From: a virus
IMG/VR virus record: IMGVR_UViG_3300022074_000140
Location: 1-37,425 of that record
DNA length: 37,425 nt
Reading direction: 5' to 3' (one strand)
Shown: positions 2,260-37,425 of the stretch, in pieces
Numbering within the stretch: position 1 is the first letter of the stretch
How the letters are laid out: every line of letters starts with the position of its first letter
Notes under the pieces: model-generated
What the model was told of the DNA's origin: nothing
Seen by the model: the letters and a program-made list of their open reading frames with translations, nothing else
The model's database searches: none
Translations under genes and position numbers: made by a program

Positions 2260-2281
2260 ATTGCACGGAAAAGGATGCAAA

Positions 2282-2395
2282 ATGTACGGTAAACCCAAAG
2301 CAAGTGGCAAGGCCAAGCCAGCTCGTCGTCGCCAACAGGCGGCAGCCGCAATCAACATGAAGAAAAAAGGCATGAAGCCTAGAAAGAGGAAGTAA
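2282..2395 (+). CDS. 37-residue highly basic peptide
   Basis: ATG 2282 is preceded by AAGGA at suitable spacing; TTG 2261 in the same frame would add seven residues. The product is almost entirely Lys, Arg, Ala and Gly, with ARRRQQAAAAINMKKKG in the middle. It resembles histone-tail or protamine-like peptides. The TAA overlaps the next ATG (TAATG), so it sits in the same coupled operon as the other basic proteins. The tight overlaps at both ends support a real gene despite its size. Confidence 0.55.
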   Translation: MYGKPKASGKAKPARRRQQAAAAINMKKKGMKPRKRK

Positions 2396-5074: not shown

Positions 5075-5083
5075 GATTTATCC

Positions 5084-6938: not shown

Positions 6939-7240
6939 TGGAGAAGCCCTCCTTCAGATTCTTCACCGCCCAGGAGAGACCCTTCAGTGCTATACCCACC
7001 TGCTGCTGCCGCTCCAGCACGACGTTGTTGATCGCGAATCGATTGCAGGTACTTTTCTGCTGCACCCTCTTGTAGCAAGGCTTGACGTTGCTGCTCTTCA
7101 AGTTCAGCCTGAAGGCGTGCTGCTTCTTTCTCAGCCTCGTTTTCGGCAAGTTCGTTTACAACGTAAGTTGTGCCAGCAGAGAGAGCGCTAATGACAAACA
7201 GGGAAAATGGGTCAATGAATGCAAGTACGGGTTCAATCAT
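6935..7240 (-). CDS. small membrane/coiled-coil protein between terminase and portal
   Basis: 101 residues: a hydrophobic N-terminal segment (residues ~3-30, ending GTTYVVNEL), then a Glu/Gln/Ala-rich coiled coil (about 32-75) and a Gly-rich tail. Both ends overlap their neighbours by 4 nt (ATGA). Similar small proteins with a hydrophobic start and a helical rod occur in podovirus structural modules. It may be a virion or ejection accessory, or a holin-like protein. I do not recognise a family. Confidence 0.55.
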   Translation of the reverse strand: MIEPVLAFIDPFSLFVISALSAGTTYVVNELAENEAEKEAARLQAELEEQQRQALLQEGAAEKYLQSIRDQQRRAGAAAAGGYSTEGSLLGGEESEGGLLQ

Positions 7241-8709: not shown

Positions 8710-10565
8710 CAGACATTGCCGTCCAGTTTTGTCACAATCAACTTATATCCAACACAAAGACCAGTGTTAGAACTGCTCGAAGGGTCTTGGTAAATATGAC
8801 GCGGAAAGACTGCTTGTGTGCCTGCAAAAGTGCAAACACCAGAAATTCCAATCACACTACGACCCGTGCCGTTTTGTCCTTGAATACCAAGGGCAAATCC
8901 TTCAAGCACATTCCTGCCGTTTGCAGGTGCAGACAAACCCGACGAGTTTTGACGCATACCTTCGCGTGGTGTCAACGAATGGCCCCCGTCATCAATTATG
9001 ACATTCGGCACGGCGGTGATTGCACCTGATCCGCCAGTTGCACCGCCACTAGCACTAGATGCTAAAAATGGACCGATTTCTTGGATGAAAGTGGGTCCAT
9101 CTCCAAAATCTGTCGCGTCACCAATGAGTAGACCGCCAGTGCAGTCGAACTTGTAAGTGCCAGGCTGCAAGGTAAACTTGTTGTTGGACGGATCAACTGT
9201 AATCCAACTTGTAGAGTTCAAGAATACGTTGTATGAATCTGCACCCCCGCCGACATTATTAGAAATTTCCAAGGCACTAACAACCCTTGACCCCGGTCCA
9301 CCCGGAGCAATTACACCAAACAAAGCGAACTCTGCGACCCGAAAACCAGCCAACTGTTGGACGGTGTTTAGTGTCGCGGCATCCGTGCTTGCTGATGGTT
9401 CTGCCAGGCCTGTAATTCTGGTTGATTGGCCAAAGTCCAGAGTGGCGGTACTAGATCCGTTTTTGTTGAAAGTCGCATAACTGCTGCCGCCAACACGGAC
9501 AGTCAAGGCATCATCAGTGCCGTTGCCAGATCCTGGGTTCTGCTTATGGCTGTAGACAATTCCGCCCATGTTGTTATCAAGAGGGCTGCCAAAATAGATG
9601 TTGCCAAACTGTGTCGCGGATGCTGGCTCAGGGCTCAAAATTGACATGCCAGCGTTGGTATCGTCTTCTTCAATCACCAAAGTGTCGCCAGCAGCGTTTG
9701 CAGTCGCCCCAGTAACAGCTCCTGCTGAGTGATGAATGATGTGGACTGAGCCGTCAGCACTAGCGTGGTCGATGTTTACACCGATCTTGTTGCCAGATGC
9801 CGTGGATTTAATCTGACCACCGGCAACAATAAGGTCGTCGTTGACGGTTACGGTCTTGGGGCCAGTCCCGTTTCCAAGAACCACATTGCCATTACAGGTC
9901 AAGTCAGTGCCGGTAATGTTGGCAAACGTCACGTTGTCTGACGTTGCCAGGCTCATGTTTGCGCGTACTGTGGTCGGGGTAGCAACCGCGTATGCGTTAG
10001 AGGTCACAATGAGCATGTTGTTGTTTGCTTGGCCACTAGGGCTTGGCACGTTCAGACTGCTGCCTTCTCCGATGTTCGCAGCCTGCTCAACAGCCAAAAC
10101 TCGGGTCGTGATTGCGTCTAACTGTGACTTGTTGATGGCATCGCCAGAGGCTGAACCATCCGTAACGTTGACAATCCGCAGGCTCTCAGCGTCCATTGTC
10201 GTGCCGTCGGTGGTGTTTCTACCAAGTGCCTGCTGCATCTGAGCTGCGAGACGGTCTAGTGATGTCTCAACAGATTCAGCAGGAAACACTCCCGTCGCAG
10301 ACAAGTCCAAAGTCTGGGTTTCTGGCACGATACGGTTGATGCGTACCTTGGTCCCCGAGTTCAAGCCAGCATCAAAGCGAAGGGTTGCACCAGTATCTGT
10401 CTTGTCAACGATTGAAAAGCCAGTGGTAATCAGCGTCTCTGTACCGCTTTGGTCGTGCAGCACTTTGATATCACTGTCCTCAAAAAACTTGTAGGGGATT
10501 GTGAAATCAGTTTGGCTAGAAGTAGCCGTGTATTGAACCGTGTTAGTTGAGGTGCTTAGGGTCAT
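8709..10565 (-). CDS. tail fibre protein with T7 gp17-like N terminus
   Basis: 618 residues. The first ~110 (VQYTATSSQTDFTIPYKFF, FSIVDKTDTGATLRF, VRINRIVPETQTLDLSATG, FPAESVETSLDRLAAQMQQA) match the T7-type fibre N-terminal domain that docks to the tail. The middle is Gly/Thr/Asn-rich with repetitive short beta segments, including GNGTGPKTVTVNDDLIVAGG, as in trimeric fibre shafts. The last ~200 residues are the probable receptor-binding part, with no recognised enzyme or chaperone motif. The 5' end overlaps the giant virion gene as ATGA. Confidence 0.9.
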   Translation of the reverse strand: MTLSTSTNTVQYTATSSQTDFTIPYKFFEDSDIKVLHDQSGTETLITTGFSIVDKTDTGATLRFDAGLNSGTKVRINRIVPETQTLDLSATGVFPAESVETSLDRLAAQMQQALGRNTTDGTTMDAESLRIVNVTDGSASGDAINKSQLDAITTRVLAVEQAANIGEGSSLNVPSPSGQANNNMLIVTSNAYAVATPTTVRANMSLATSDNVTFANITGTDLTCNGNVVLGNGTGPKTVTVNDDLIVAGGQIKSTASGNKIGVNIDHASADGSVHIIHHSAGAVTGATANAAGDTLVIEEDDTNAGMSILSPEPASATQFGNIYFGSPLDNNMGGIVYSHKQNPGSGNGTDDALTVRVGGSSYATFNKNGSSTATLDFGQSTRITGLAEPSASTDAATLNTVQQLAGFRVAEFALFGVIAPGGPGSRVVSALEISNNVGGGADSYNVFLNSTSWITVDPSNNKFTLQPGTYKFDCTGGLLIGDATDFGDGPTFIQEIGPFLASSASGGATGGSGAITAVPNVIIDDGGHSLTPREGMRQNSSGLSAPANGRNVLEGFALGIQGQNGTGRSVIGISGVCTFAGTQAVFPRHIYQDPSSSSNTGLCVGYKLIVTKLDGNV

Positions 10566-13500
10566 TTGGGCAAGTCCTTCTTCTTATCGTTTTCATAGCG
10601 TCGGATTTCTTTTCTAATCTCATCCATAAAATCATCGGTTGCTCGTTTGAAATCCTCTTCTGTCATATCGCCAACTGATACTTCAGGATACCGAGTTCGG
10701 ATCAGCGAATTCCACAAGTTATTAGCCTGTAGTGCGGTGGTGGCAACTTCTTTGGTGCTTTTGTTGCCAACAGACATCAAAAGGAGAGCTGTAGCGACCG
10801 CAAGATCAAGCCCTTCTTTGTCAGAGATTTTTTCACCTCTCATGGCTTTGCGCAAAATCTGCACGGCATCTTCTGGCAGGTCAGAAACAAGTTCCAAGAA
10901 AGCCTGGGCTGGTTTTTCAGACCGACCGTAGTCACGAATTGCGCCTTGAGGAATCAATTCCGCGTCTTCTAGGACATCGATTGTGCCTGACCTGAGAGTT
11001 CCCGGTGCGTTCATCAATGCCCCCGGTATACCTGGGACCATTGCGCCTCCTGTTTCAACAACTCCCACCACCAGCTCGCCAGCAATCGTTCGCGGGTTCC
11101 AATCAACTTCCTCGTCTTCAGGAATTGGAATACCCCCCAACTTTTTAGCCTGGTTCATACTTTCATCGACTAGACGTTTGAAAATGGTTGCCATTGCAAC
11201 AGTAGTAAACGCAGCCGTAAGTACATTTTTGATGTTGTTCAGACTTGTCGGGTTGGACATTAGTTGACTGTACATCTTGGTGAGCGCGGCACGAAACGGC
11301 ATCATCATTTGAATCGCTGGATTCATCCGTGCATTGAAAAGACTAGGTGATGCTGAGACTGGGTTTGGCATCGGCTGGGTTTTTGAAATCGTGGGCAACG
11401 CGCGTTCGTTGGTCGCAGATTGGAACAGAGGATGTTCTAGGATTTGGCGACCGTTACGGCGTATTCCGGATGGTGTAATTTCAATACCTCTAGCCCCAAG
11501 GTCATTCAAAAGCCGATCAAAGGTTCCAGATTGATCCATCCCGAAATGGCCAACAGCAGCACTTTTGTCACCGGTCTCGGCGTAAGTAACAAGGGAATCC
11601 AGAGTCCACTGTTCAGCACTGCTCCAGATTTGCACAATAGTGTGACGGTCAACACTACGCATCATTGCAAGCGCTGCCTCTGTCAACTCCACGTCATTCA
11701 CATAAGCCGATGTTGTAGATGCGCCAGCGTCGTAACCGACTCCCACGTTCAGAGTGTTCTGGCTGAAGCGAGCCCAAAGCAAGCCTGATCCATTAATCAT
11801 CCGTTCGTACGTCTCGTTTTGCGAGTTAACGAACAAAGCACGCCCGGCCTCGGGAACACCACCCGTGAACGGATTTGCATACGTCGAATTTTTGTATCTA
11901 CTAGGGATGAGCCCAGGTTGATCACCAAAAGCCAGTGGGTATGAACCTGCCTGCTTGACTGCCGTCGTTGGGCTGACAAGACGTGTAGCGCTAACTCCAC
12001 GGTTTAGGCTACGCAGAATCTCAGACAAGTATGGAGTGTCGCCGCCGATTCGGTATCCCAAGACATCTGCAACCTCGCCTACAACCTGATTCGCCATGTT
12101 GTCGGCATACCGAGATCCACCTTTTTTGCCATCCATTGCACGTCTTGTTGAGCTGCTGCTACGACTGTTAAACAGCCCATACAACACATTTGCATTTGGA
12201 GCCATCTCGTGATGGACATAGTTCTCAGTCGCACGGCGTGAGATAAAGGACAGGCCGTCCGTAATTACGATGCCCCTTTTCTTTGTGCCAGAGCGTTGTG
12301 CCTGCGTGCTTGAAAGATCAGTAAGACTTTGTCCTCCATTTGTAAGTTCTTGCTGTACGTCCTGTTGAGTCCTTCTTTTGCCATCACCAAGAATGTCGCC
12401 ACGCCGTCGTGGGAAGAAAGTCAACCCCAGCTCAGACTGCTCAAGTCTTTGTCCCGCAGCAACCCTGACTTCGTGCATCTGGCTGGTTTCATCACTCATT
12501 GAAAGCAAGAAGTCTGACAGCTCGCGTGGCTTAAGACCTAACTGCTCAAGAATGTTCATCTGTTCGACAATTACCGCCACGTCGTTGGAAGTCAATTCCA
12601 CTGATTTAATGGTCTGACCCTTACGCACAATCTCGATTGGAGCGCCATTGACAATGATTTCCCGAAAACCGCTTTGATCCCGAATAGTTGTGTAAAGGTG
12701 GACCAACTCCATTGGGTTCATCACAACCCGTTCGTTTTCAAAGTTGAGACCTATAGACCGAGTTTGCCTGAATCCATTAACAAGTGAGCCCAAAAGCCCA
12801 GGTTGGTATGAGGGGTGGTACTCAGCGAGACGTTCTATCGGGAAACCGGCTGTGTCTGCAAACTCTACAAACGCTCTTCCATCGTCGCGTTGGCGACCTC
12901 TAACACCGCTCGATGCCACGATAAATCCATTGACAGTTTGGGCAATCTCGCTTTCTTCTCCAGCCATACGGATTGCCAAGTCTTGTGGGGACATATCTCG
13001 CAGCCCCAATCCGCCTACTAGATCACCGCCGACCTCGCCAGTTTCAGTGTCTACTTTTCTGTCTTTGAGGGGCGAAGTGCGGATTTCACTTGTAATTCTC
13101 AAATCGCGCCGTGTGTCCTCTGCAACCTTTTTGGCCGCTTCTGCTTCTTGAAGTTCTTTGTTGACGGCTAGCAGGTCGTCAATTTGTTCAGCGGCTTCGA
13201 TCTTTGCAATTCGATTTGAGTGCAGTACATCAAGAGGCTGTTGTTTAGGGTCAAGTGCCAACAAGTCAACGTCAGGCTGAGAGTTAAGATATGCGTTCCG
13301 TGCCTGATCAAACGAAGCATCAAGACGCTCGTCGCCAGTCTTTCCGTTGTCTCGAGCCCACTTCATAGTGTCTTCGGCAGAATTTTTGACATTGGTAGAC
13401 AACGGGTTGATCCGGTTGCCAAACATGGCTTGTTCAAACAGCGGTACAAGGTCAGGGTGGATTTCTTCCTTTTGAACTTTACCAACGGCTTCCGCCCAGT

Positions 13501-16500
13501 CCTTGGTATTCACCTTCCACAGTTCTGTCTCAACCAATATCGCGGTTTTCTGAACTGCTTCGATTCCCTTTTCTAAGACCTTGTCAGCAGTTGCAGTTTC
13601 CTTGGGCAACATTCTGAGAACGCGACCACGAATCGAATTATTCTCTTTGGTTGACAAACCATTCTTAGTCAGCAGTTTGTCAATCTCACCACGAACCAAA
13701 GTGAAAGCGTCCGCAGAGTCTTTGCGGTCCTGTCGTACCTCCGCAGTTTTTGCTTTCTGTTCTGCAAGTCTTGCATCACTGCGAGCCTTCTGCTCCTCAA
13801 GCCTTATCTGTGCTTTGAGAGCCGCCTCTTCACGTTGCTCACGGTTGCGCGCCCTGGTCTCAGTCGCTTCTGCTCGTTGTTTTTCCAGTTGTTCGGTTCG
13901 TGCGATGCGAGCCTTTTCGGTAGCCTCACGCACACCAGCGCGGTACGCACGACGTTCTGCTGGTGTAACTTGCTGTGGGTCTAAGGGTAATTCGTTGTCA
14001 ACCAGAAGCTGCAACTCAGACTCACTGAGTTCGATGCCAGCATCTCGTCTTCTTTTAACTTTGCCGATTTCTTTTGGATCTGCGGGCTTTCGCAACGCAT
14101 CTTTGTTGGTAATTACAATTTCTTCTACGTTGGTTTTAGATCCATCACCACTCGTTCCAGTTGCGCGATATGCATCGAACCCTTTTTCTTTGAGGGCTTC
14201 TGCAAGTTGTGCATCTACACCATCACCAAGGTAAAAGCCCTGCCCTCTGAAATTTGGATCCAAAAACTCATGGATCATTCCGCCTGCGTATTCTTCAGAT
14301 CCAGGTTTTACTTGTGGAAAACCGAGTTCTGCCAACGTGTCGAGAACTACTTGTTCGGATGCAATCTTATTTTTTTCCAGTTCAAAAGTCTGCACTGCAC
14401 CTTCAGTAGCAGCACCGTATTTTTCCGCTTCACTTAGGGTTTCCGTTGAGTAGGTGAGGGCGCTGTCAGGATCTACTTCTCCGCCTCGGTAGACTTTGAC
14501 AACGTCAGGCTTGGGTGGTTCAGGTTTCTTGGCCTTGGGCTTTTTAGCAGGAGTTGTAACTTCAACTTCTACGCCAAACTCTGCAAGCATGATGTCTCGC
14601 AGCAAACCTGCGGACTCTGATTTTGGATCAGCAAGATTTATGGTGTTTATGTCTCGTAGTTGTTCGACACTAATTTGTGTGTTGCCATATACGACGTTGG
14701 TCTGTTGGCCAAAGGAGGTTGTAGGCAGAGACCTAATGATGTCTTTTGCTTTGCCAAGCAACAGGTCAAAAGCAGGATCACCTGGCACAAGGCCACTGGT
14801 TCCTGCGTCCATCATGACTTCAGCAAGAATGCCCTCTGCTTTAGCAGTCAAAGGCTTTGGAGTTCTGGGAGCAGGCGTTTTAAGTTCAGTCCCTGCTTCT
14901 GCTGCTGCAATAAACTCATCATCCAAGAGTGGGTTTTGACGCATCGCCTCGATCTCTTCAGGCGTGTAAGGCCGAGGAGTTGAGTCAATCGGTGCAGGCT
15001 CACCCGGAACCGAAGGCTCAGGTCCACCTTGGAAGTAGGTTCTGCTGTCTGGGCTCAGACGGCTCCAGTACGCAAACTGTGGCAAATCTTGTGTAGGAGC
15101 CCCACTAGCCATGTTTGCAGGCAGCGTTCCTTCTACGGTCCCTGACACCGCCATATCGGGCCTACCAGCCTCTCTGACAGGCACGGGCCTCGAAAGACCC
15201 CCCACGGCTCCGGGAGGCGGCATAGACGTTGCAGGCGGCGGTGTGCCTTGCATTGGAGGCGGCAGTTGACCAACCGGCGCTGGGAGCTGGGCAGTCTCCA
15301 ACGGTGGCAACTCTGGCCTTGGCTGCATGCTCTGTGGCCGGAGTCCACGCCGGAGGATCTCTTTGTCGAGTTGTCTGATGACTTCTCTGGCTGCTTGTCG
15401 TTCATACCCAGTCAAAGGTCCGCGTTCAAACATTTGCGGCCTAGTGCCGTCAGGCAAGGTGGTCTCAGCACGGTGGACTGTCCCTACAACCCCACCAGGT
15501 TTGAGCCCTGCCTGTCTGGCCAAAGTGTTGCGAAGAGCGGCTAGTTGGCTACCAGACAAAGAAGATGCATCTGTTAGTGAACGTGCCATGATGGTGTCAC
15601 GAATAATTTGCGACTGAACATTTTCGAGAGCAGAAATGGCCGCGGCGACATCAAGCATCTCACCTTGCTGGCCTTGTGTCCGGTAGTGGGCTCTCATTCG
15701 TTGCAGCTCTTGCTGCACTTTCATGTATTGCATCCGGCCTGAGTAGGCTTTGACAGCCATTGGGATTGTCGAAAAGGCGGCGTACACCCCAAAGTGTTTT
15801 GGAGAGTCGCGTAGATTTTCCGACAAGTAGAGTTGTGCGGTTGCGGCTGTTCGCTCTTCTGCAAGAATCAAATCTTGCAAAGTTCCGTTGCCGACTTCAA
15901 GCGTTGCGCCTAACGCACCGCTTTTTGCGGCAGTAGTAGAGAGCTGCACCATCATCTGGGCAGCTTCTTTGGCGGTCATGTCTTTTGCGCCTTGAATAAA
16001 GAATTTTTCTAGAAGAGGCTGGGCTTGAGCCCCCATAAATTTAAAAAGCCGCAGGATGCCGTAGTGGTATGCGACGTTCACTGCTGCTAGACCCGCAGCA
16101 GTTGTACGGTCCTGTTCAACTCCCACTTTAATTCCGTCTGCGTATGTACGAGCAGCAACATCAGTCAGCAACACGGGCGCTAAAAACCACTTAGACAAAT
16201 CAACCATAAACCCAGGGGTTCGGGAAAACAGTTCGCCATCACGCTTTTGGTAGCGTTGTAAAAAATCTTGTCGTTGTAGCACGGCTTCGTCGCGTTTTTC
16301 GACCAACCTGTCCCCAAACTCGTCTTTAAATTCTTGAGCAGCCTTTTGACCAGCCTCTTCGCCTTCTCTGGCAGAAACCATCCGTTCGACCAGTGCGCCT
16401 ACTGGGACAGCAAACAAGTCTTGTGTTGCGACTCCTAAATCCTTGTCAATAACATCTAGGGCAGTAGAGAAATTGCCAAAAGGTTCTACAAGTGAGGTGA

Positions 16501-16861: not shown

Positions 16862-19521
16862 CAGGCAGTTTCTCCTGGGCTTGCAACACCCTTCCATCCG
16901 TCTTGAGCAGCCAAGTTTTCAATGGCAGTTCTAATCATAAAGGGCGTGCCTTCAGGATACATGGTGTATGCAGCCTCTTCATACATCGCCAAGCGGAATC
17001 CAGTGGGATCTTTATCTTGCATGTACGCCTCGCCCATTTCGGGTCGATACCTGTAGGGCCGACCTTCGGGGCTCATATGGAGAGCCGCGGACAAGTGGCC
17101 GAACTCTTCAGGCAGCTCGGTGCTTGGCACATCAGTTTCGACAGTGACGGTGTTGTCTTCGTTGACGGTGACTTTCATGTACGAATCCGTGCCGATTCTG
17201 CTAACGCGACCGTTTGAATCACGCTGGTGCGCTTCAAAGTACACAACATTAGACTGACCAGGGTTGTCGGACACAACAGGTCGTTGCAGGTCGTAATACA
17301 AATTTGAATCCAAGTCATCTGCGTTTGGCATTTTCTTGGCGAAGTCAGATAGAGCTGCGTCGTTAAATTTGCCATCGCCCCCGCGGAATGGTGAATCTTG
17401 CGGGATGTACAGCATCGACTGTGGGTCAGACATACTTTCGTCACCGCGAGTCAGAAAGTAGCGACCATCTGGAATCTGCGGCATAGCCACAAACATGTCC
17501 TGCGCCGCACTTGCTTTGGACTGACGAAGGGCATCTTTTGCAACACCGAAATCAATTGTTTGGCCGGACGTAGCCTCTTCGGCAAGAAGCAAAACACTCT
17601 CGATAAAAATCCTGTCAGTGGCTAACAAACTTTTTACCCTGCGTTCTCTGTCTGTGACTACAGATTCTCCGTTTGTTTTGTAAAAACGTACACCTTGCAA
17701 CACGTTAGTGAGCAAACTTGCAGACATACCTTCAGACCCAACCTTGACAGCTTCTTCGGTTACTTGAGACCCCTCGGCAAGTATTACGTCAAAATCAGCA
17801 CCTTTGACTCCTGCATCATTCATTGTCTTAGTGGTGTAGTTGGTAAATCGGTATATGCTTGCAAAAGACTCAACAAGTTTTAGAGGATCAACTCCACGGA
17901 ATTTTTTTCGTTGCTGGCTGCTTGTTGATCTGTCAAGGTCAAGGGTAAATAGCAACCTGGTAGGAGTAGTCACGTCACCTACTTTGCCCAAAATCAACTG
18001 TTTACGCTCAGATTCGGAAATCGCTTCACCCTGAGAGGCCACCCTCATTTCGTCAAGCAAGTCATATGCAGCACGCCGCGCTGCTGGATCTTGACTGTGA
18101 GCCCCGTTAAGCACATCTAAAGCGCCGCTTGGCAAAGGAATTGATGAATCAATCGTGACTGTTGCTTTGACCAATTCTTTCCGTAAAGAAGCGCCAGCCC
18201 TGTCGTAAAGATTGTCGATCACTTCTTGGGTGTTGTAATCAGATTTTGCAAGAACTTGTCTTACAGATTCGGTGTTGTAAGTAACTGACCCGTTTTCCTC
18301 ATTTCTTGTGCCTGCTTGCTGCAACTCAGCGAAGGCTACGTCTACAGTGTTGTCGAGAGTATCGACTTTTTGCAGTGCGTCTTCTGCTCTTTTAATTGCT
18401 GCTAGTAGTTTGCTGGGGTCTCCGCCTTTTTTCAATACTTCTTCGGCTTTAGTTTTTGCACTGGCAACATGACTTGTCAGGGTCAAACTTTCGCTTGATT
18501 TAATACCGTCTGGCAAAATCCCATCTAACACGCCGTCAAGACTAGTTGCTATTGCGTCACCTTGAGTGGTCGCCGGAGTGATACCCGCACGCTGCAACGA
18601 CACGTCTGAAACACCACTTAGTTTATTTGTGATTGTCACCCCATCATATGGTCCTGAAGGATCAATCGTGTTTCCATTGGAGTCAGCGTCACTTAATACT
18701 TCAGCCCCCAAAGCCCGGTCTTTTTGCTGTGCAATCTTCAGTTCTTCTCGGTCGATGTAGTTTTCTAATCTGGAAACGTGTTCTTCTGATACTGCCCCTT
18801 TTTCACTGCCTAGAGACAGAATTTCCCGCGCACCTGTAACATCGCCCTTTTGAATCAATGCCCTGACACCAGCGCCAATGGTGGAATTGCCTTCCCTGTC
18901 GGCGATTTTCACAAGCTGCTCAGGGTCGTAGCCACGCTCGTTCCGTCTTGCCTCGATTCTGCCTTTGTGGTCAACCGCTTTCGCAACCACATCTGCTGGC
19001 GTTAAAGTTGTCTGATTGGAAACGAAACCTGTTCGTTCTACTTCGGAATCAGTGGTAAGAGATGCTAATTGTACGCCAGCACCAAGTCGGTCTCTATTGT
19101 TTCGGACAGTGACATACCTGGGTACGGCGTAGTTTCGGAGGTCTTGTGCAGCTCCTTGCCCATACTGTGCTGCTACGTTGTCAATAAGCGAGGCAAGAGA
19201 TGATTCAAATTGGGGAATGTGCTGGTTCAAAGGTGTGACCGGGGCTCCATCCTTTGTGTTTCCCAAGTCGTATACAAATTTGTCTATTTGTCGTTTGGCA
19301 GTAGAGACTGCAACTTCTGCCTCTGGTGTAAGTTCACCACTGTTGAGGGCTCTTTCTTTACGCTGCACAACTTGAGCAACATCTTCCAAACCTTTGCCAA
19401 CGGTTTGCAAGGCTTCACCGACGTTGAAGCCTTGTTGGCGTGGAACTGGTTGTATTGCGCGTGCAGAAGGTCCGCGTGCAAATGCGGGGTTGTCTACCGA
19501 TTGTGTTGGAATTTTTGCCAT
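16861..19521 (-). CDS. internal virion protein, T7 gp15 position
   Basis: 886 residues, largely helical and charged, with no membrane span or catalytic motif. It lies between a gp14-like gene and the giant gene. In T7-like phages this place holds the second internal core protein, which is ejected and forms part of the channel across the envelope. The N terminus (MAKIPTQSVDNPAFARGPSA) and the following FNVGEALQTVGKGLEDVAQV segment are typical of such proteins in marine podoviruses. Assignment rests on position and architecture. Confidence 0.7.
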   Translation of the reverse strand: MAKIPTQSVDNPAFARGPSARAIQPVPRQQGFNVGEALQTVGKGLEDVAQVVQRKERALNSGELTPEAEVAVSTAKRQIDKFVYDLGNTKDGAPVTPLNQHIPQFESSLASLIDNVAAQYGQGAAQDLRNYAVPRYVTVRNNRDRLGAGVQLASLTTDSEVERTGFVSNQTTLTPADVVAKAVDHKGRIEARRNERGYDPEQLVKIADREGNSTIGAGVRALIQKGDVTGAREILSLGSEKGAVSEEHVSRLENYIDREELKIAQQKDRALGAEVLSDADSNGNTIDPSGPYDGVTITNKLSGVSDVSLQRAGITPATTQGDAIATSLDGVLDGILPDGIKSSESLTLTSHVASAKTKAEEVLKKGGDPSKLLAAIKRAEDALQKVDTLDNTVDVAFAELQQAGTRNEENGSVTYNTESVRQVLAKSDYNTQEVIDNLYDRAGASLRKELVKATVTIDSSIPLPSGALDVLNGAHSQDPAARRAAYDLLDEMRVASQGEAISESERKQLILGKVGDVTTPTRLLFTLDLDRSTSSQQRKKFRGVDPLKLVESFASIYRFTNYTTKTMNDAGVKGADFDVILAEGSQVTEEAVKVGSEGMSASLLTNVLQGVRFYKTNGESVVTDRERRVKSLLATDRIFIESVLLLAEEATSGQTIDFGVAKDALRQSKASAAQDMFVAMPQIPDGRYFLTRGDESMSDPQSMLYIPQDSPFRGGDGKFNDAALSDFAKKMPNADDLDSNLYYDLQRPVVSDNPGQSNVVYFEAHQRDSNGRVSRIGTDSYMKVTVNEDNTVTVETDVPSTELPEEFGHLSAALHMSPEGRPYRYRPEMGEAYMQDKDPTGFRLAMYEEAAYTMYPEGTPFMIRTAIENLAAQDGWKGVASPGETA

Positions 19522-31482: not shown

Positions 31483-32383
31483 GGATTTTCTCCAATCCTA
31501 AGTGTCCGATGCTGCACCAGTCTCGGCTTGAGCAAGCCATGCACCCCTCGGCATCGGGAATCGCGGGGGCATTGTTTTTAAGTATCCAATCTGCTCTTTG
31601 ATCAATCTCTTGATGGATCCAATCGCGTGAGGATTTTAAGTGTTCCGTGGTCCACACGCAAGGGATGAACCATGTTTTCTTTGGTCGGTGGTCACCTTTT
31701 TCTTTGATGACTTGCTCGCCATCAACAGTGATGGTTGTCTTGCGCTTGTACGGCATAAGACCGGGGGTCCATAGCAGTGTTGTCTGGACAAGGTTTGCGG
31801 AGACATCGCACCAGAACGGGTCAAGGTATATCTGCCCGTCCCAAAGAGCGTGAGCGTATGCGGCCATCTGCGGCGAACGAACGGCGTAACCCCAAGGCAA
31901 ACTCTTTGTCCACTTGAAGTCGATGATGTGATAGTTGTTGTCTCCCAAGTCCACCAGCACGTCCAAGTGTGACTCAAAGACATTGCCGCTTTTCGTCGTG
32001 AAACGGACAGGGACTTCCGTATGGGTGTCCTCTGGAATGATGTCCAACTCGGGTAGGGCCGTCTCGATGAAGTACCCCATTGCCTCAGTGATCTCCCAAC
32101 ACATCTCTTCAGGGTCTATGGATTCGGAGAGAATCCGGCCCTCTTGCCCGATGGTGATGAACGTATCTTCGGTGGCGTGTGCAGTTATCTCGACGGCATC
32201 CAGCGGGCTTACAGCCAAACCTTCAGCGGCCCGCTTGACAATGAGTTCCTGGGCTCGGCCCGCTACCAGACCTCGATACATGGCTTTGGGGATCTTGGCT
32301 TCGCACTTCCCGGCCCGTTGAAGCAGGCGTGCATGGGGGCATTTAGCGGTCAGGTCGCCGCTGTGAATGAGTATTTCGTCCAT
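31475..32383 (-). CDS. Cas4/RecB-like PD-(D/E)XK nuclease with Fe-S cysteines
   Basis: 302 residues. The nuclease core is visible: GRAQELIVKRA (~42-52), HLDVLVD (139-145), IIDFKW (153-158; D155 and K157) and QMAAYA (172-177). One Cys near the N terminus (C15, CPHARLL) and three near the C terminus (C-x2-C-x5-C in GCMACSSRDWC) fit the four-Cys Fe-S cluster of Cas4/AddB-type nucleases. It probably resects DNA ends for the ERF protein. No Cas1 or Cas2 or CRISPR array is present, so it is a stand-alone phage recombination nuclease. Confidence 0.88.
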   Translation of the reverse strand: MDEILIHSGDLTAKCPHARLLQRAGKCEAKIPKAMYRGLVAGRAQELIVKRAAEGLAVSPLDAVEITAHATEDTFITIGQEGRILSESIDPEEMCWEITEAMGYFIETALPELDIIPEDTHTEVPVRFTTKSGNVFESHLDVLVDLGDNNYHIIDFKWTKSLPWGYAVRSPQMAAYAHALWDGQIYLDPFWCDVSANLVQTTLLWTPGLMPYKRKTTITVDGEQVIKEKGDHRPKKTWFIPCVWTTEHLKSSRDWIHQEIDQRADWILKNNAPAIPDAEGCMACSSRDWCSIGHLGLEKIHG

Positions 32384-32612
32384 TCTTGTTTCCAGTCTTA
32401 TGTGTTCGTTCGTACTCGATTGCGTACCACACGCGCTCGATAAACGAGATTCTAGGGTTTGTGATTGATCGATTCAGCCACCGACTGAGAGTCTCGCGCC
32501 GCAGTCCGGCCCGCTTTGCGACTTGCGTGACCTTGAGATCCAATCGAAGCATGGCTTTTAAAATCCTGGCACGATGCTCTTCGTCCGAGAGAGTTGGAGG
32601 CTTGAGTGGCAA
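32343..32612 (-). CDS. small HTH transcriptional regulator
   Basis: 89 residues from TTG 32612; the ATG at about residue 20 is an alternative. KVTQVAKRAGLRRETLSRWL (residues ~26-45) is a helix-turn-helix of the Cro/XRE type, followed by NPRISFIERVWYAIEYER. It likely represses or activates early genes. The 171-bp region just upstream holds a repeat array and a 14-bp palindrome that could be its operator. Its end overlaps the nuclease gene by 41 bp. Confidence 0.75.
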   Translation of the reverse strand: MPLKPPTLSDEEHRARILKAMLRLDLKVTQVAKRAGLRRETLSRWLNRSITNPRISFIERVWYAIEYERTHKTGNKNGRNTHSQRRPDR

Positions 32613-32655
32613 TGATTGTCTTCTCCGGCTGTCTCATGAGGTGCAGGTGCATCAT

Positions 32656-32733
32656 CGGCCCGAGTGTACACGGCCCGCAATCGGCCCGCAATCGGCCCGT
32701 GTTCGCTTCGGCCCGCGGCCCGAGACCGGCCCG
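32656..32733. repeat. array of seven CGGCCCG repeats
   Basis: Copies start at 32656, 32671, 32682, 32693, 32709, 32716 and 32727. Several neighbours are 11 bp apart, close to one helical turn, so a protein could bind them on one face. GTGTACAC overlaps the first gap. The array lies upstream of the HTH regulator and downstream of a small Cys gene, with no gene of its own. It looks like an iteron-type origin or a cooperative operator. Confidence 0.65.
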
Positions 32734-32741
32734 CCCGACGG

Positions 32742-32783: not shown

Positions 32784-33023
32784 TCATTCGCCATCATTGA
32801 TGTACCCAACCCGCGCGTGGTCAAATCTTCCGCATTTGTTGCAACGGAGCAAGACCGATGTGCCGCGGTGACCTTCCGAGATATTTGGTTCGGTATCTAA
32901 TTCGCGTCCGGTTTTACTCTCAACACAAAACAAGCCACCGCAGCCGGGGCGGCTATCGGTGAGGGTTGGAGTGCATCGCCCGATGCTCTCTCCGGGATCT
33001 GGTAAGCGGGTTAGTTTTTTCAT
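32784..33023 (-). CDS. small Cys-containing protein, 79 aa
   Basis: Starts MKKLTRLPDPGESIGRC and ends CNKCGRFDHARVGYINDGE. It contains five Cys, including C..G...C and CNKC, compatible with one zinc site. The ATG overlaps the stop of the gp88-like gene as ATGA, which supports a real coupled gene. Function not recognised. The repeat array and palindrome follow its stop. Confidence 0.55.
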   Translation of the reverse strand: MKKLTRLPDPGESIGRCTPTLTDSRPGCGGLFCVESKTGRELDTEPNISEGHRGTSVLLRCNKCGRFDHARVGYINDGE

Positions 33024-33805
33024 GGGTGGACCGGGTAGACGATCCCAGCGATACGATCATCCGCGCACAATGTGCAGCGCCCGCAGTGGTGCGCTTCGCC
33101 CGCCGCGCCGCGGGTGTACTTGGCGGCGACTGCTGGGCAAACTGCGTTTCTCCCGGATCGGTCCCGGAGAATCGCGGCGGATTCGTGCAGGCGTGATAGT
33201 GGCGGGCGTTCCATGGATCCCCCAACTGTCGAGCATGCCCCGCGGGTCTTCTTCCAATCGGCATTGGGGACCGACTGCCGGACTACGATTTTCCCTCCGT
33301 CAAGCGGTCCCCCGCTGTATCGGATTCCCCGGAAGAGTGCGCGGTATTGGCGTGCTTTGGCTGCTGATTCGACTGGGCAGTGAATCGGGATCCCCAAGCC
33401 CGCGACGGTCTTGGTGAGTTGCCGAATGGCGGCGGCGGTTTTGCCGCGGGGGTTTTTGGGCAAGGATCCAAACGCCGAGAATCTGAACCATGGCGGGCGG
33501 TTGCCGAGTATGTCCATGGCGAGGATTTCCCGCTCTGCTTTGGCTGCGATAGCGGCGGGCGTTTCGTCTTCGTGCCGGTCCAGTTTGGCGGCGAGGTTTC
33601 TCCGTCTGGGGCTCGCCTCAAGCGTGGCGGCATAGCATCGGGCGGTTTTGGGTGAGGCGTGCGGGCTGCTGCTGTTTGGGTGATAGGGGCAAGCGGTGGC
33701 GCAGTGTTTGCCCCCGCTGCGTCCAAAGTTGAGCGCCACCGATCCGGGGCAACCTTTGCCAAAGCTGCCTAGAGCTGGTTTGTTGTTCAGTACGGCTAAT
33801 TGCAT
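33020..33805 (-). CDS. gp88-like Cys-rich protein
   Basis: 261 residues from ATG 33805, chosen because GGAG lies at ideal spacing. Longer frames would run back through the divergent plus-strand gene. Visible features: NNKPALGSFGKGCPGSVALN, HCATACPYHP, CYAATLEASPRR near 60-75, then PWFRFSAFGSLP, and a final CGRCTLCADDRIAGIVYPVH. This layout resembles the gene product 88 family of mycobacteriophages and others, whose function I do not know. Cys spacing suggests metal or Fe-S binding. Confidence 0.65.
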   Translation of the reverse strand: MQLAVLNNKPALGSFGKGCPGSVALNFGRSGGKHCATACPYHPNSSSPHASPKTARCYAATLEASPRRRNLAAKLDRHEDETPAAIAAKAEREILAMDILGNRPPWFRFSAFGSLPKNPRGKTAAAIRQLTKTVAGLGIPIHCPVESAAKARQYRALFRGIRYSGGPLDGGKIVVRQSVPNADWKKTRGACSTVGGSMERPPLSRLHESAAILRDRSGRNAVCPAVAAKYTRGAAGEAHHCGRCTLCADDRIAGIVYPVHP

Positions 33806-33928
33806 CGTTTTGGTCTCCAAGTCGTAGATTCGTAAAATCCTGGGCTCCATGCCCGACGGCGTTATAACATCTTCTACTGTTCCGTGGTACACTTGGCGCG
33901 GCAATAGTGCCAAACTGGAGTTTTTACA
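33806..33928. promoter_or_regulatory. divergent promoter region with a start-associated hairpin
   Basis: This stretch separates a minus-strand gene from the only plus-strand gene of the right half. Toward the right, TACACT at 33887-33893 could be a -10 box. It is followed by a GGCA-ATAG-TGCC hairpin at 33900-33911, then AACTGGAGT before the ATG. The order -10, hairpin, AACTGGAGT repeats the plan of the modules at 35065-37183 with another stem. Toward the left a TTATAA occurs near 33863. The -35 boxes are unclear. Confidence 0.45.
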
Positions 33929-34696
33929 ATGAATGATTCTCGTATCGAATGTTCCCCATTTTCGGAGCCCATGGACGTGGTCCGGTCTGGGATCTCCTTT
34001 TTCGGTCCCCCGTCCCCCGGTGGCGTTGGCTTTGGGTGGTTTGGAATCCCTGCCGAGTATGTCGCGCATGCAATGAAGGCGGGCATTCGGTTCGCTCAGA
34101 CTCCCGAGGTGGCTGGGCATTTCCGATGGTGTCGTGTGTCGGGTATGGCTTTCGGGAAATTGATCGTGGGAGAGGGCGAGCATATTACAGACGCGCACCT
34201 GCTCCTAGATTCGTTTGGTTTGACCGATCCCGATTGTACTTTTGACGTTTACCCTACCGAGCCGTTGCAGCGTATCCCGGTGCGGTCGGATCCTTGGACG
34301 TTCGAACAGTTTGAGAACCATATGTCCCACCTTCCTTTGTACGATTGTTCTGGGGTCTTGGATCTCCCGCGGGATGTGAGTGATAGAGGGCGCAACTTCT
34401 CGCCCTCTCTCCGGCGGCGGTTGGTCAAGTCCTGCTATAGGACGATGCCGCTGGTTCCAACTGAGGGCAAGGTTTACAGTTTCCGCGGGTTGGTGAGTGC
34501 AATGCTCGAGGATGAGATTGGGTTGGGTGTGAATGATCTTCCTGATTCGTCGGAGTGGTCCGATTTGTGGGAAGCGGGCGAGATTGTAACCCCCGCCGAT
34601 GTGGCGTACGCGGCGGCGTTGGTTCTGGAGGGCAGCGACCGATACACTTTTGAGGGTATGGAGTCCCTTTCGCCGGTTCTCAGTTTGTATTTCTGA
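33929..34696 (+). CDS. isolated plus-strand protein of unknown function, 255 aa
   Basis: Soluble, with no signal peptide or membrane span. Aromatic/Gly-rich near the N terminus (SFFGPPSPGGVGFGWFGIPA) with an acidic C-terminal half that looks helical (DSSEWSDLWEAGEIVTPADV). I recognise no family. It is the only plus-strand gene between 2.9 kb and the right end, with its own leader (AACTGGAGT before ATG) and its own terminator. It is therefore an independent transcription unit, like the morons or orphan early genes of other phages. Confidence 0.7.
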   Translation: MNDSRIECSPFSEPMDVVRSGISFFGPPSPGGVGFGWFGIPAEYVAHAMKAGIRFAQTPEVAGHFRWCRVSGMAFGKLIVGEGEHITDAHLLLDSFGLTDPDCTFDVYPTEPLQRIPVRSDPWTFEQFENHMSHLPLYDCSGVLDLPRDVSDRGRNFSPSLRRRLVKSCYRTMPLVPTEGKVYSFRGLVSAMLEDEIGLGVNDLPDSSEWSDLWEAGEIVTPADVAYAAALVLEGSDRYTFEGMESLSPVLSLYF

Positions 34697-34718
34697 TCCT
34701 GCTGCGGCGGGTTGATGT

Positions 34719-34755
34719 GCGGGCGGCTCCTTCGGGGGTCGCCCGCTGTCGTTTC
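34719..34755 (+). terminator. terminator with UUCG tetraloop for the plus-strand gene
   Basis: A 12-bp stem (GCGGGCGGCTCC facing GGGGTCGCCCGC, with two G-T pairs) closes a TTCG tetraloop, followed by a short T-containing tail (TGTCGTTT). It lies 22 bp after the stop codon and next to an oppositely oriented terminator, giving convergent termination between the two units. Confidence 0.8.
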
Positions 34756-34760
34756 AGGGC

Positions 34761-34801
34761 GAAACGAAAAGAGCCCGCCGCGGGTGGATTGCGGCGGGCT
34801 C
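34761..34801 (-). terminator. terminator, first copy of the repeated 31-nt hairpin
   Basis: GAGCCCGCCGC and its perfect complement form an 11-bp stem around a 9-nt loop (34771-34801); in the minus direction TTTTCGTTTC follows. It lies 23 bp after the stop of the 79-residue gene. The stem and loop are identical to the copies at 35859-35889 and 36729-36759. Confidence 0.85.
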
Positions 34802-34824
34802 CGGTGTGGGGCGATAGTTGGCGG

Positions 34825-35064
34825 TCACATTGCCAGCATTATTGGATCGAGGCTTTCGGGGCCGTGTTCGTCCCAAGCGGCGGCGCTCACTTCTTGCGTG
34901 CCGTGGCTCTTGGTGAAGTCCCGGCTGCATACGTCAAAGCGGATTTTTCCCTCTTCGCGGTCTGCTGGGTCAATCAATACTTCACGGCTGATAGTGGGCA
35001 AATAGATCCAAAGCAGGGTTACGCTTGGGTGTCGTCCGTCGCGGCTGATGATTTTTTCGAGCAT
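34825..35064 (-). CDS. small protein of unknown function, 79 aa
   Basis: MLEKIISRDGRHPSVTLLWI, then YLPTISREVLIDPADREEGK: a short mixed alpha/beta, soluble protein with no recognised motif. The ATG is preceded by the conserved leader (hairpin plus AACTGGAG), which fixes the start. A TTGCAA/TACAAT promoter overlaps the end of the upstream lysozyme gene, so it can be transcribed on its own. It ends at a copy of the repeated terminator. Confidence 0.6.
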   Translation of the reverse strand: MLEKIISRDGRHPSVTLLWIYLPTISREVLIDPADREEGKIRFDVCSRDFTKSHGTQEVSAAAWDEHGPESLDPIMLAM

Positions 35065-35132
35065 GTGATTCTCCAGTTCTGCGGGGCTCTCCCGCTGGGG
35101 TCATTGTAAGGGGCAGCGCTTCAGGATTGCAA
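35065..35132 (-). promoter_or_regulatory. promoter and start-associated hairpin, copy C
   Basis: Minus-strand TTGCAA (35127-35132), 18-bp spacer, TACAAT (35103-35108), then a GCGGG-AGAGC-CCCGC hairpin (35081-35095), and AACTGGAG just before the ATG. The promoter lies inside the 3' end of the endolysin gene. Confidence 0.75.
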
Positions 35133-35673
35133 GTCCGCGCCCGATATATCGGTTCTTGTTCCGGGCGGCGGTCCCGGTCTTCTGGGCGTGGCGTGGTCCT
35201 GCGTTCCAAAGCCCGAATATCTCCGCGGGGGTCTCTGCTCCGTAGCGGTCAACGTATCCCCGTAGGGCGCGGAGGCTTTCGGCAAGGTCTGCGGCAAGGT
35301 GATACGGGCGCTCGGGTGTTCCAAGGTGTTCTTGTGCGTCTTGCCATGCGCCGCGGTGTATGGCAAGGGGGCCGAGTCCATCGCCTCCGTCGTGGCTGAT
35401 GGGTCCGAGTCTCCCGCTGCTCTCCAGTTGGTGGATCGTCCATTCTACGGGCGAGCGGTACGGGCTTGGGGCATGAGCTGCGCGGGGGGTTGTGGCTTTG
35501 GGCGCTGCTGGGGGGGTTTTGGCCGTTGCCCTGGCCGTCGCCCTGGCATCAAGCTGTAGCGGCGGGTTTGCCTGCGGCGGGCTTTGTTGGGGCTTTGGTC
35601 GTGTGTTGGCGGCAATGGCTGCCCCAAGGGTGAAGGCGAGCAAGGCGCTCGCGGCGTGTTGTGATAGTTGCAT
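35101..35673 (-). CDS. secreted lysozyme-like endolysin (i-type lysozyme-like fold)
   Basis: 190 residues from ATG 35673, placed by the conserved leader. An N-terminal hydrophobic segment (residues 8-22, ending AAIAANT) is a likely signal peptide, followed by a Pro/Ala-rich linker to about 72. The catalytic domain has QLESSG (E84), Asp residues near 95-98, GPLAIHRGAW (101-110), RYG and WNAGP (156-160). E..SG, GP.QI-like, W and NxGP are the landmarks of invertebrate-type lysozymes and related bacterial proteins. It probably cleaves peptidoglycan after export by the host Sec system. The exact bond is unknown. Confidence 0.65.
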   Translation of the reverse strand: MQLSQHAASALLAFTLGAAIAANTRPKPQQSPPQANPPLQLDARATARATAKTPPAAPKATTPRAAHAPSPYRSPVEWTIHQLESSGRLGPISHDGGDGLGPLAIHRGAWQDAQEHLGTPERPYHLAADLAESLRALRGYVDRYGAETPAEIFGLWNAGPRHAQKTGTAARNKNRYIGRGLAILKRCPLQ

Positions 35674-35722
35674 CGTGGGTACTCCAGTCCCGCGGGGCTC
35701 TCCCGCTGGGCTTCTTACTGTA
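35674..35722 (-). promoter_or_regulatory. start-associated hairpin leader, copy D
   Basis: The GCGGG-AGAGC-CCCGC hairpin (35692-35706) is followed by GGGACTGGAGT and the endolysin ATG. TACAGT at 35717-35722 is the likely -10 box. No TTGCA-type -35 box is seen 17-18 bp upstream, unlike copies A-C. Between this and the terminator at 35889 there is no credible gene. Confidence 0.6.
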
Positions 35723-35846
35723 TCGGCTGCGTGGCGTGGTCGTCTTGGGTCTTCGGTGGTCGCTGCGGGTTGTTCCGGTTGTGCCGGTCGTGCGGGCGCT
35801 GCTGGGGCTCTGGGCTCCGCTGGCGTGCGCCCTGGAGTTGGGCGGG

Positions 35847-35889
35847 GCGAAACTAAAAGAGCCCGCCGCGGGTGGATTGCGGCGGGCTC
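35847..35889 (-). terminator. terminator, second copy of the repeated 31-nt hairpin
   Basis: Same 11-bp stem and 9-nt loop as the copy at 34771-34801, followed on the minus strand by TTTTAGTTTCGC. It lies 27 bp after the stop of the 186-residue gene, with an ACTATCGCC motif between them. Confidence 0.85.
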
Positions 35890-35915
35890 CAAACTGAAGG
35901 CGATAGTGTGCGGCG

Positions 35916-36476
35916 TTATCTTCCGCCGATGTGCCAGTGGCTCACGTCTCCCTCGTGGTCGTAAGTGATAACCATAGATCCGGGTCCGTTTTGTTCTGGA
36001 TCTCTCCAAGCCTCGAGGGGGTAAATGAGTCCGTCGGGCGCTTGAAGCATCAAGGTGGCGACATCGTCGCCGGTTCCGTATTCGTCATCGTCCGGGCATA
36101 GAACTAAGCCGACGATCTTGGACCCGATTAAATGCTTGGCAAGCGATTTTTGTTGCGGGTCTTTGGCTTTGGTGGGGTGCAGCAAGTTGGGAAGCGTCTT
36201 TCCGTACAATTCGAATTCTTCAGGCATTTCTTTCTCCAGTTCTTTTGGGTGGGTGTGGTGTTCAGGCATTCCGAGCATGTCCCGGCGTGCTTCTGCGAGT
36301 GTTGTGTAAGGTCCGTTCAGGTGGTCGCAACCGTCCGTATTCGAGTACCATTGGTTCATGCCGGGGGGGAAGTTTACCCACAGGAAAGCGTGAAACTCTC
36401 CACGTTCGATTTCTTCCTCGGTGCGGATGATGCGTGCGTCGTTTGGGACGTTTTCCCATGTGATCTCGTCAACCAT
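35916..36476 (-). CDS. protein of unknown function, 186 aa, with probable internal start
   Basis: Begins MVDEITWENVPNDARIIRTE; GGAAGG precedes the ATG. The N-terminal part has GPYTTLAEARRDMLGM, and the C-terminal part LMLQAPDGLIYPLEAWRDPE and VITYDHEGDVSHWHIGG. No family recognised; acidic and soluble. ATG 36227 in the same frame (Met84) has AACTGGAG 6 nt upstream, exactly the cassette-type binding site, so a shorter 103-residue form (from MPEEFELYGK) is likely. Either the gene makes two products or two ancestral genes have fused. Confidence 0.65.
   Translation of the reverse strand: MVDEITWENVPNDARIIRTEEEIERGEFHAFLWVNFPPGMNQWYSNTDGCDHLNGPYTTLAEARRDMLGMPEHHTHPKELEKEMPEEFELYGKTLPNLLHPTKAKDPQQKSLAKHLIGSKIVGLVLCPDDDEYGTGDDVATLMLQAPDGLIYPLEAWRDPEQNGPGSMVITYDHEGDVSHWHIGGR
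36228..36241 (-). promoter_or_regulatory. internal ribosome binding site AACTGGAG before Met84
   Basis: AACTGGAG (36234-36241) is followed by six purine-rich bases and ATG 36227, in frame with the longer gene. The eight bases match the site used by copies A, B and C of the start-associated module. No hairpin precedes this one. Confidence 0.5.
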
Positions 36477-36478
36477 GT

Positions 36479-36646
36479 TTAATCCTTCCCGCCGCGCTCA
36501 AGTTTGGCGATTTGACGGCTAACCTGTTTCGCCTTGTGGTGCATCAGCGATGCGGTCGCTTTGTCCGTGGCGTTTTGGCATTGCCGGGCATTGATCTGCT
36601 CGAGGCGCTTGAGTCGCTCGAGTTGCATTCGGGGTGCGGTGTTCAT
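36479..36646 (-). CDS. small helical basic protein, 55 aa
   Basis: MNTAPRMQLERLKRLEQINA, then a Gln/Lys-rich helix ending AKLERGGKD: probably one long helix or coiled coil. The start is fixed by the conserved leader and AACTGGAG. It is the first gene of a two-gene cassette with the 186-residue gene, 2 bp apart. Function unknown. Confidence 0.6.
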   Translation of the reverse strand: MNTAPRMQLERLKRLEQINARQCQNATDKATASLMHHKAKQVSRQIAKLERGGKD

Positions 36647-36715
36647 TTTTACTCCAGTTCTGCGGGGCTCTCCCGCTGTGTGGTCCATGGTACACCGTTG
36701 GCGATAGTGCTGCAA
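36647..36715 (-). promoter_or_regulatory. promoter and start-associated hairpin, copy B
   Basis: Minus-strand TTGCAG (36710-36715), 17-bp spacer, TACCAT (36687-36692), then GGACCACACA, a GCGGG-AGAGC-CCCGC hairpin (36662-36676) and AACTGGAGT before the ATG. Nearly identical to copy A. Confidence 0.8.
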
Positions 36716-36716
36716 G

Positions 36717-36759
36717 GCGAAACGCAAAGAGCCCGCCGCGGGTGGATTGCGGCGGGCTC
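36717..36759 (-). terminator. terminator, third copy of the repeated 31-nt hairpin
   Basis: Same 11-bp stem and 9-nt loop as the copies at 34771 and 35859, followed on the minus strand by TTTGCGTTTCGC. It lies 22 bp after the stop of the 110-residue gene and 2 bp before the next -35 box, so one cassette ends where the next begins. Confidence 0.85.
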
Positions 36760-36781
36760 AGGAGGGAGGACGGTGGGGGGG

Positions 36782-37114
36782 TTACTTGTTCGCTTGTCGG
36801 ACCATGTCCCGATGCTCCGTCAGGCGGTGCTGGAGGTGTTCGCGTACCTTTTCGCGTGATTTGTCGCCGATGCGGCGAAGCGTTTCCTCGTTGTATTGGT
36901 CTTGGACCTGCTTGATGATCCGGGTAACGGTGTGTAGGTCCACAATGAACGACGCAGGATAATCGCCATTCTCCTGCTCGACGTGTGCAAGGTTCTCCAT
37001 GGTGTCAACGAGGCGATCCATCTCGGGCATGCCTACGCGGCGGTCTAATTCCATCATGCGAAGGGCGATAGTATTGGAAATCTCATCAAGTTCGGTTTGG
37101 GTTGGGTTGGTCAT
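36782..37114 (-). CDS. helical protein of unknown function, 110 aa
   Basis: From ATG 37114, fixed by the leader: MTNPTQTELDEISNTIALRM, then a charged helical body and SREKVREHLQHRLTEHRDMV near the end. Soluble, no Cys, likely a helical bundle. No family recognised. It forms a complete cassette of its own (promoter, hairpin leader, gene, terminator). An in-frame extension upstream to 37156 would translate the leader hairpin and is not accepted. Confidence 0.65.
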   Translation of the reverse strand: MTNPTQTELDEISNTIALRMMELDRRVGMPEMDRLVDTMENLAHVEQENGDYPASFIVDLHTVTRIIKQVQDQYNEETLRRIGDKSREKVREHLQHRLTEHRDMVRQANK

Positions 37115-37183
37115 GTTTACTCCAGTTCTGCGGGTCTTTCCCGCTATGTGGTCCATGGTACTCGGGCTCTTCTTCTATTGCAA
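37115..37183 (-). promoter_or_regulatory. promoter and start-associated hairpin, copy A
   Basis: Minus-strand TTGCAA (37178-37183), 17-bp spacer, TACCAT (37155-37160), GGACCACATA, a GCGGG-AAAGA-CCCGC hairpin (37130-37144), then AACTGGAGT before the ATG. The loop differs from copy B while the stem is kept. Confidence 0.8.
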
Positions 37184-37425
37184 GGGTTCGCGTGCATTTT
37201 TTGGTGAGACCTGGGTGATGAGCTGAAATCCGTACCGGCTCGGCTGGGTGCGTCTTCGGTCCATACTTGTGGTTCTGCTGCATGAGTGGAGCGCCCGCGG
37301 GTGCGCGTCTTCTGTATGTCTGGCGATAGTACGGGCGAGCGTCTGCGCGTTGTCTTGGCTTGGGCATGCGGGCGCGGTGGGATGGTGGCGCGGGCGTGGT
37401 TTGCGTTGGCGGTTCGGCTCGTGGC
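37184..37425. other. GC-rich right end without a recognised gene
   Basis: A minus-strand frame starting near 37367 runs into copy A of the leader and looks non-coding (Arg/Pro/His-rich). One ACTATCGCC motif lies at 37322-37330 (minus sense), as in the other cassettes. A GCGCCCGCGGGTGCGC near-palindrome occurs near 37290-37305. The region may hold the end of another cassette that continues beyond the window. Confidence 0.4.

Follow-up and report, generated by a model that had tools for sequence, protein, structure and literature searches.

Stem-loops lying within a few bases of the 5' end of a messenger RNA, with the Shine-Dalgarno (SD) sequence left unpaired, are known from single genes, natively in ompA and papA and as an added 5' hairpin in bla, while in the gene 10 leader of phage T7 a phage promoter is followed by a hairpin from +1 onwards, and then by the SD and the gene. 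A hairpin at the 5' end hinders RppH in E. coli and makes the bla mRNA more stable, and the B. subtilis enzyme requires at least two unpaired 5' nucleotides (review PMC3997798). Reiterated elements at gene starts have been described in the cluster K mycobacteriophages and the cluster EF Microbacterium phages, where the start-associated sequence (SAS) motif, GGGATAGGAGCCC or GGGAAAGGACCCC, is situated at the SD in 10-19 copies (PMC3203893, PMC7302621). In cluster K the 13-bp SAS motif is itself the SD region, and the study describing it reported hairpins in the 17-bp repeats to be poorly supported (PMC3203893).

The stretch of DNA analysed here, hereafter the window, spans all 37,425 bp of an IMG/VR virus record. 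Its minus strand encodes a portal, a large terminase, tail tubular proteins A and B and a major head protein, as well as an Erf-like recombinase, a helicase, a RusA-like resolvase and a DNA methyltransferase. Judging from these structural and DNA-processing genes, the window phage is an uncultured short-tailed phage. The best isolate relatives of its tail tubular protein B are Pelagibacter podoviruses, with ~30 % identity, while the capsid relatives among genome contigs derive mostly from environmental or marine bacteria, many of them alphaproteobacteria. No match to the region 33000-37425 was found in a nucleotide search against phage records. Where the leftward early region begins, four minus-strand leaders each place GCGGG-N5-CCCGC-N3-ACTGGAG ahead of an ATG, as the initial annotation had reported (Table 1).

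Table 1. Features of the leader array and its surroundings in the window
Feature	Position	Strand	Remarks
Module 1 -35-like TTGCAA	37178..37183	-	17-nt spacer to TACCAT
Module 1 -10-like TACCAT	37155..37160	-	
Module 1 hairpin GCGGG-AAAGA-CCCGC	37130..37144	-	
Module 1 ACTGGAG (SD GGAG)	37120..37126	-	5 nt before ATG
Cassette 1 gene	36782..37114	-	110 aa, no family match
Cassette 1 terminator	36726..36757	-	one of three identical copies
Module 2 -35-like TTGCAG	36710..36715	-	17-nt spacer containing ACTATCGCC
Module 2 -10-like TACCAT	36687..36692	-	
Module 2 hairpin GCGGG-AGAGC-CCCGC	36662..36676	-	
Module 2 ACTGGAG	36652..36658	-	
Cassette 2 gene a	36479..36646	-	55 aa, no family match
Cassette 2 gene b	35916..36476	-	186 aa, no family match
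Cassette 2 terminator	35856..35887	-	one of three identical copies
Module 3 -10-like TACAGT	35717..35722	-	no clear -35
Module 3 hairpin GCGGG-AGAGC-CCCGC	35692..35706	-	
Module 3 ACTGGAG	35682..35688	-	8 nt before ATG
Cassette 3 gene	35101..35673	-	190 aa, hydrophobic N-terminus, no family match
Module 4 -35-like TTGCAA	35127..35132	-	18-nt spacer
Module 4 -10-like TACAAT	35103..35108	-	
Module 4 hairpin GCGGG-AGAGC-CCCGC	35081..35095	-	
Module 4 ACTGGAG	35071..35077	-	6 nt before ATG
Cassette 4 gene	34825..35064	-	79 aa, no family match
Cassette 4 terminator	34768..34799	-	one of three identical copies
Divergent gene behind fifth leader	33929..34696	+	255 aa; weak match to L155 2571-3404
Diverged fifth leader (to ACTGGAG end)	33888..33920	+	TACACT, weak hairpin, ACTGGAG 33914-33920, ATG 33929
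Conserved cysteine-rich protein	33020..34198	-	common to the uncultured phages of the window, L155, L156, L157, L159 and L164
HTH repressor-like gene	32343..32612		

The window contains exactly four matches to the hairpin pattern GCGGG-N5-CCCGC, against a mean of 0.01 in shuffled sequence (0/100 shuffles reach four). As the stem is symmetric, the hairpins are read here in the sense of the minus strand. The combined pattern GCGGGNNNNNCCCGCNNNACTGGAG likewise has four matches in the record, all on the minus strand, and none elsewhere. ACTGGAG alone is commoner than chance in the window (11 observed against 4.9 expected), and the significance resides in the combined pattern, ACTGGAG by itself not being rare. 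The TTGCAR boxes 17-18 nt from the -10 box that had been proposed for three copies are present, while the third copy retains only TACAGT. Of the distances reported earlier, that of ~10 nt between the -10 box and the hairpin applies to three copies (10 nt each) and shortens to 7 nt in the fourth, and ACTGGAG does precede the ATG in all four, at a gap of 5-8 nt. The spacing between hairpin and SD is identical throughout. Stem and ACTGGAG are 100 % identical across the four copies and the loop 80 %, while identity falls to 23 % in the -30 to -17 region and 31 % in the coding starts, with the flanks (-60 to -45, -30 to -17) at a near-random 23-31 %. Identical stem and SD blocks amid randomised flanks thus argue for selection on the blocks and against a recent duplication.

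The genes behind the four modules are mutually unrelated, as had been claimed and as is borne out by protein comparison among the cassettes. No family match was obtained for the cassette proteins in PHROG and Pfam, no match for the cassette 1 protein in phage records, and no homologue of the cassette genes was detectable in the relatives discussed below. Two features were absent from the initial annotation. Cassette 2 includes a second cistron, gene b, with an internal ACTGGAG at 36234-36240 ahead of an in-frame ATG, and a 32 bp intrinsic terminator is present in three identical copies, with none between cassettes 3 and 4. Since these terminators close transcription units, the region constitutes an array of short cassettes.

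The likeness to the cluster K SAS that had been suggested stands as an analogy of concept and fails for the motif and the arm structure. Like SAS and ESAS, the window carries short conserved repeats directly upstream of the starts of several unrelated non-structural genes, mostly in one orientation and in intergenic gaps, and often with an upstream inverted repeat. However, the window unit consists of ACTGGAG behind GCGGG-N5-CCCGC rather than of GGGATAGGAGCCC or GGGAAAGGACCCC, and in place of the imperfect ~17-bp arms and variable spacer of ESAS its arms are perfect and 5 bp long (5-7 bp in the relatives L155 and L159). Unlike SAS, this group of phages has a perfect, GC-rich hairpin of 5-7 bp upstream of a plain SD and right after the promoter, with 2-4 copies in each phage, and a common terminator closes three of the window units. 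A stem-loop at, or very close to, the predicted 5' end and a downstream SD predicted to be unpaired would be features in common with ompA, papA and the modified bla, but the window element is reiterated before unrelated genes of one virus. T7 gene 10 depends on a promoter for the phage's own RNA polymerase, whereas the window boxes resemble host sigma-70 boxes. No described phage leaders of the promoter-hairpin-SD kind were found in the literature, and no RNA family in Rfam 15 matched the window at the gathering threshold. The window element fits best among the 5'-terminal stem-loop leaders, as a new form employed as a reiterated part.

A fifth, diverged leader, also absent from the initial annotation, lies on the plus strand (33888-33931 including the start region). 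Its weak hairpin may be drawn as GGCA-ATAG-TGCC or as TTGGCGC..GTGCCAA, and it aligns with the minus-strand leader of L155 through the TGTTCCGTGGTACA and TGGAG blocks. The divergent plus-strand gene behind it may be orthologous between the window and L155, and at this locus a diverged module is kept in both phages.

Relatives were gathered by portal and head-protein scans. The first portal-based relatives either lacked the early region or had a different one, and were set aside. Record G030 (locus L155) encodes a head protein 79 % identical to that of the window and keeps the early gene order. The leader of its first cassette reads TTGCAA-17-TAGAAT-7-GCGGA-ATGG-TCCGC-AT-ACTGGAG-N6-ATG and that on the opposite strand, in divergent orientation, TACAGT-11-GCGGA-ATGG-TCCGC-CG-ATTGGAG-N8-ATG. 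Within this divergent pair the hairpin-to-SD spacing is exact and the loop stands in sense orientation in both copies. Relative to the window, the fifth stem pair is A-T in place of G-C, a compensated change, and the loop has 4 nt. In alignable sequence, the covariation that had been proposed as a check is thus limited to this one pair, perhaps a single event; MAFFT misplaced the L155 stem, and the L155 alignment was left out of the pair counts. The search for the proposed pattern in related phages, allowing three mismatches, found none in 68 related records, the L155 version being missed because its loop length differs.

The phage L159 has a homologue (43 %) of the cysteine-rich protein gene, whose product has no match in PHROGs, Pfam or phage records. 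Two of its leaders carry TACTGT, then, 6-7 nt on, the hairpin (C)GGGTTC-AYTCG-GAACCC(G), and then AAGGA and the ATG, and precede an 82-aa gene and a DUF932 gene. In the 29 kb L159 record the (C)GGGTTC-N5-GAACCC(G) hairpin occurs only at these two leaders. Its stem is unrelated in sequence to that of the window and cannot be aligned with it, which leaves a common origin of the two sets of leaders as a candidate only. The architecture is conserved in both relatives with changed stems, and the base sequence of the hairpin seems to count for less than its form and placement. Selection on structure had originally been argued from the varying loop; that argument has only two loop alleles behind it (AGAGC in three copies, AAAGA in one), and the conclusion is supported instead by the L155 and L159 hairpins. 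In L156 and L157, TACCATGG and nearby inverted repeats precede the homologue of the cysteine-rich protein gene, but these are single and different and were rejected. L159 also contains direct repeats of GGTTAGCCGCTACGGGT(C/T)CGGGGTTCTCTTAG at 4677-4775, just upstream of its second hairpin leader, and the L164 contig, which carries a homologue of the same gene, has a long degenerate array of ~8-bp units (CCACGGTA-type) at 18001-18270.

A blind scan of ~2.7 Mb for promoter-hairpin-SD leaders recurring within one contig flagged the window and two relatives that retain the early region, L155 and L159; the one other hit was a GC-rich pair lacking promoters (L013). Helicase-related loci (1.1 Mb) and capsid relatives in bacterial genome contigs (0.27 Mb) yielded no repeated leaders, and when the window, L155 and L159 were each shuffled 40 times with dinucleotides preserved, no group of two or more leaders arose. 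Single promoter, hairpin and SD sites over 2.4 Mb showed no usable positional signal outside the group of these three phages; only repeated leaders are therefore informative. An exact-pattern scan of viral contigs returned nine single-copy matches, close to the number roughly estimated to arise by chance for a pattern with 17 fixed bases. Among these, L009 has promoter, hairpin and SD, but as a single copy in an unrelated phage whose leader folds differently, and was not counted.

In all eight leaders (four in the window and two each in L155 and L159) the hairpin begins 6-11 nt past the -10 box, and thus at the expected mRNA 5' end. The reading we favour, and regard as somewhat probable, is that the leader forms a 5'-terminal mRNA stem-loop with an exposed SD, a putative stabiliser of early mRNA or setter of its translation. 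A sigma-70-like promoter would start transcription at the hairpin or a few bases before it; with a start ~7 nt past the -10 box, 0-4 unpaired nucleotides would stand ahead of the stem. The mRNA would thus open with a GC-rich stem-loop, directly after which the SD (ACTGGAG) would lie single-stranded ahead of the start codon. So few unpaired 5' bases would block pyrophosphate removal and 5'-end-dependent decay, while the unpaired SD would allow strong expression of the small early genes. Protection of the 5' end with an exposed SD is preferred because of these 0-4 nucleotides and the RppH and bla precedent, and would presuppose 5'-end-dependent decay in the host. In predicted RNA folds the 5-bp stem dominates locally in 4/4 copies, and the centroid structures of most copies leave the SD unpaired; the folding z-scores of the whole leaders are modest (+0.8 to -2.4). 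Should the leaders act in this way, early mRNA starts would be standardised by structure and not by sequence, and sequence-pattern searches would overlook such leaders. Repeated promoter-hairpin-SD leaders may represent a sequence-independent route to such regulation in metagenomic phages, and offer a testable model of early gene control in uncultured phages as well as ready-made leader and terminator parts.

The same repeat could act as DNA. A dimeric phage repressor binding GCGGG-N5-CCCGC at the transcription start might repress the cassettes jointly, the phage-specific stems then reflecting repressor specificity, a combination that we consider unlikely. The spacing between half-site centres is 10 bp (9 in L155), the repeat overlaps the expected transcription start, stem identity with a free spacer fits, the repeat sequence varies between phages, and a HTH repressor-like gene is present at 32343-32612. 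An operator would, however, be expected to be phased with the promoter, and an RNA element with the SD, and it is the spacing to the SD that is rigid, while that to the -10 box ranges from 7 to 10 nt (11 in the minus-strand copy of L155) and that from SD to ATG also varies; an RNA-level unit is therefore favoured. Furthermore, the repeat is confined to leaders and never precedes the HTH gene, other candidate operator sites exist in the strand-biased ACTATCGCC (one in promoter 2) and the GGGC repeats upstream of the HTH gene, and the sense orientation of the loop in both copies of the L155 divergent pair points, weakly (p=0.5), the same way. At the RNA level, hairpin and SD might instead be bound by a phage or host protein or by a small RNA, placing translation of the cassettes under joint control. 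The hairpin-SD block is fixed at 25 nt, the AGA/GGG linker and ACTGGAG are conserved beyond the needs of anti-SD pairing, L155 keeps ATTGGAG and ACTGGAG, and ACTGGAG also precedes the internal and divergent starts; but the hairpin sequence and loop differ between phages, so that a co-varying partner would be required, and we rate joint control of this kind slightly below the repressor. Least probable is the passive spread of a functionless hairpin, with leader and terminator copied by recombination as cassette end pieces, for despite the three identical 32-bp terminators, the similar leaders around unrelated genes and the encoded Erf-like recombinase, the flanks and promoter spacers are randomised around an invariant stem and SD, and two relatives repeat different hairpins at the same position.

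Further repeats accompany the array. The motif ACTATCGCC (ACTAT[CT]GCC) is confined to the minus strand in the window early region (33900-37330), where five copies are exact and a sixth is a near match, among them one in the promoter 2 spacer, two just before terminators and one in the divergent leader, where it stands in the place of CTATGGAC in L155. It is likely the window counterpart of that repeat. All 14 copies of CTATGGAC in the 18.5 kb L155 contig lie on the plus strand, at 2041-14861, and 11 of them fall within 2041-6143, against a third-order expectation of 0.09 over the first 6.5 kb; coding and non-coding DNA alike contain copies. This polar repeat appears stoperator-like. Like the stoperators that cluster A mycobacteriophages carry, and that PMC3203893 contrasts with SAS, the ACTATCGCC and CTATGGAC repeats are short, asymmetric, dispersed and in one orientation, a likeness that concerns these repeats only, the hairpin module being unlike a stoperator. 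The terminator of L155 is related to that of the window and has the same ATCCACCC loop, with a stem that is different yet still complementary. It is conceivable, though doubtful, that this phage group uses a modular expression code of a phage-specific hairpin and SD cap, a standard terminator and, alongside, a stoperator-like motif, in which hairpin divergence would, for example, avoid cross-talk or match a phage RNA-binding regulator.

The minus strand of the window carries 13 copies of GCGGGCCG and the plus strand none (1.3 expected), with four at 32671-32734 and one at 32507, close to the HTH gene, where the minus strand of 32507-32734 holds a GATTGCGGGCC-type cluster. The corresponding region of L155 (6442-6507) contains five spaced copies of TCGGGCAG, and these arrays may be described as iteron- or operator-like. 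At the opposite end of the window, a contig (L018/L072) is 99.9 % identical to the left 6.4 kb and ends, at 6443-6878, in inverted portal-gene sequence, probably an assembly chimera. One further record (L068) carries two paralogous copies of the window 1948-2259 and 3084-3884 genes, at 7679-8729 and 12083-14117.
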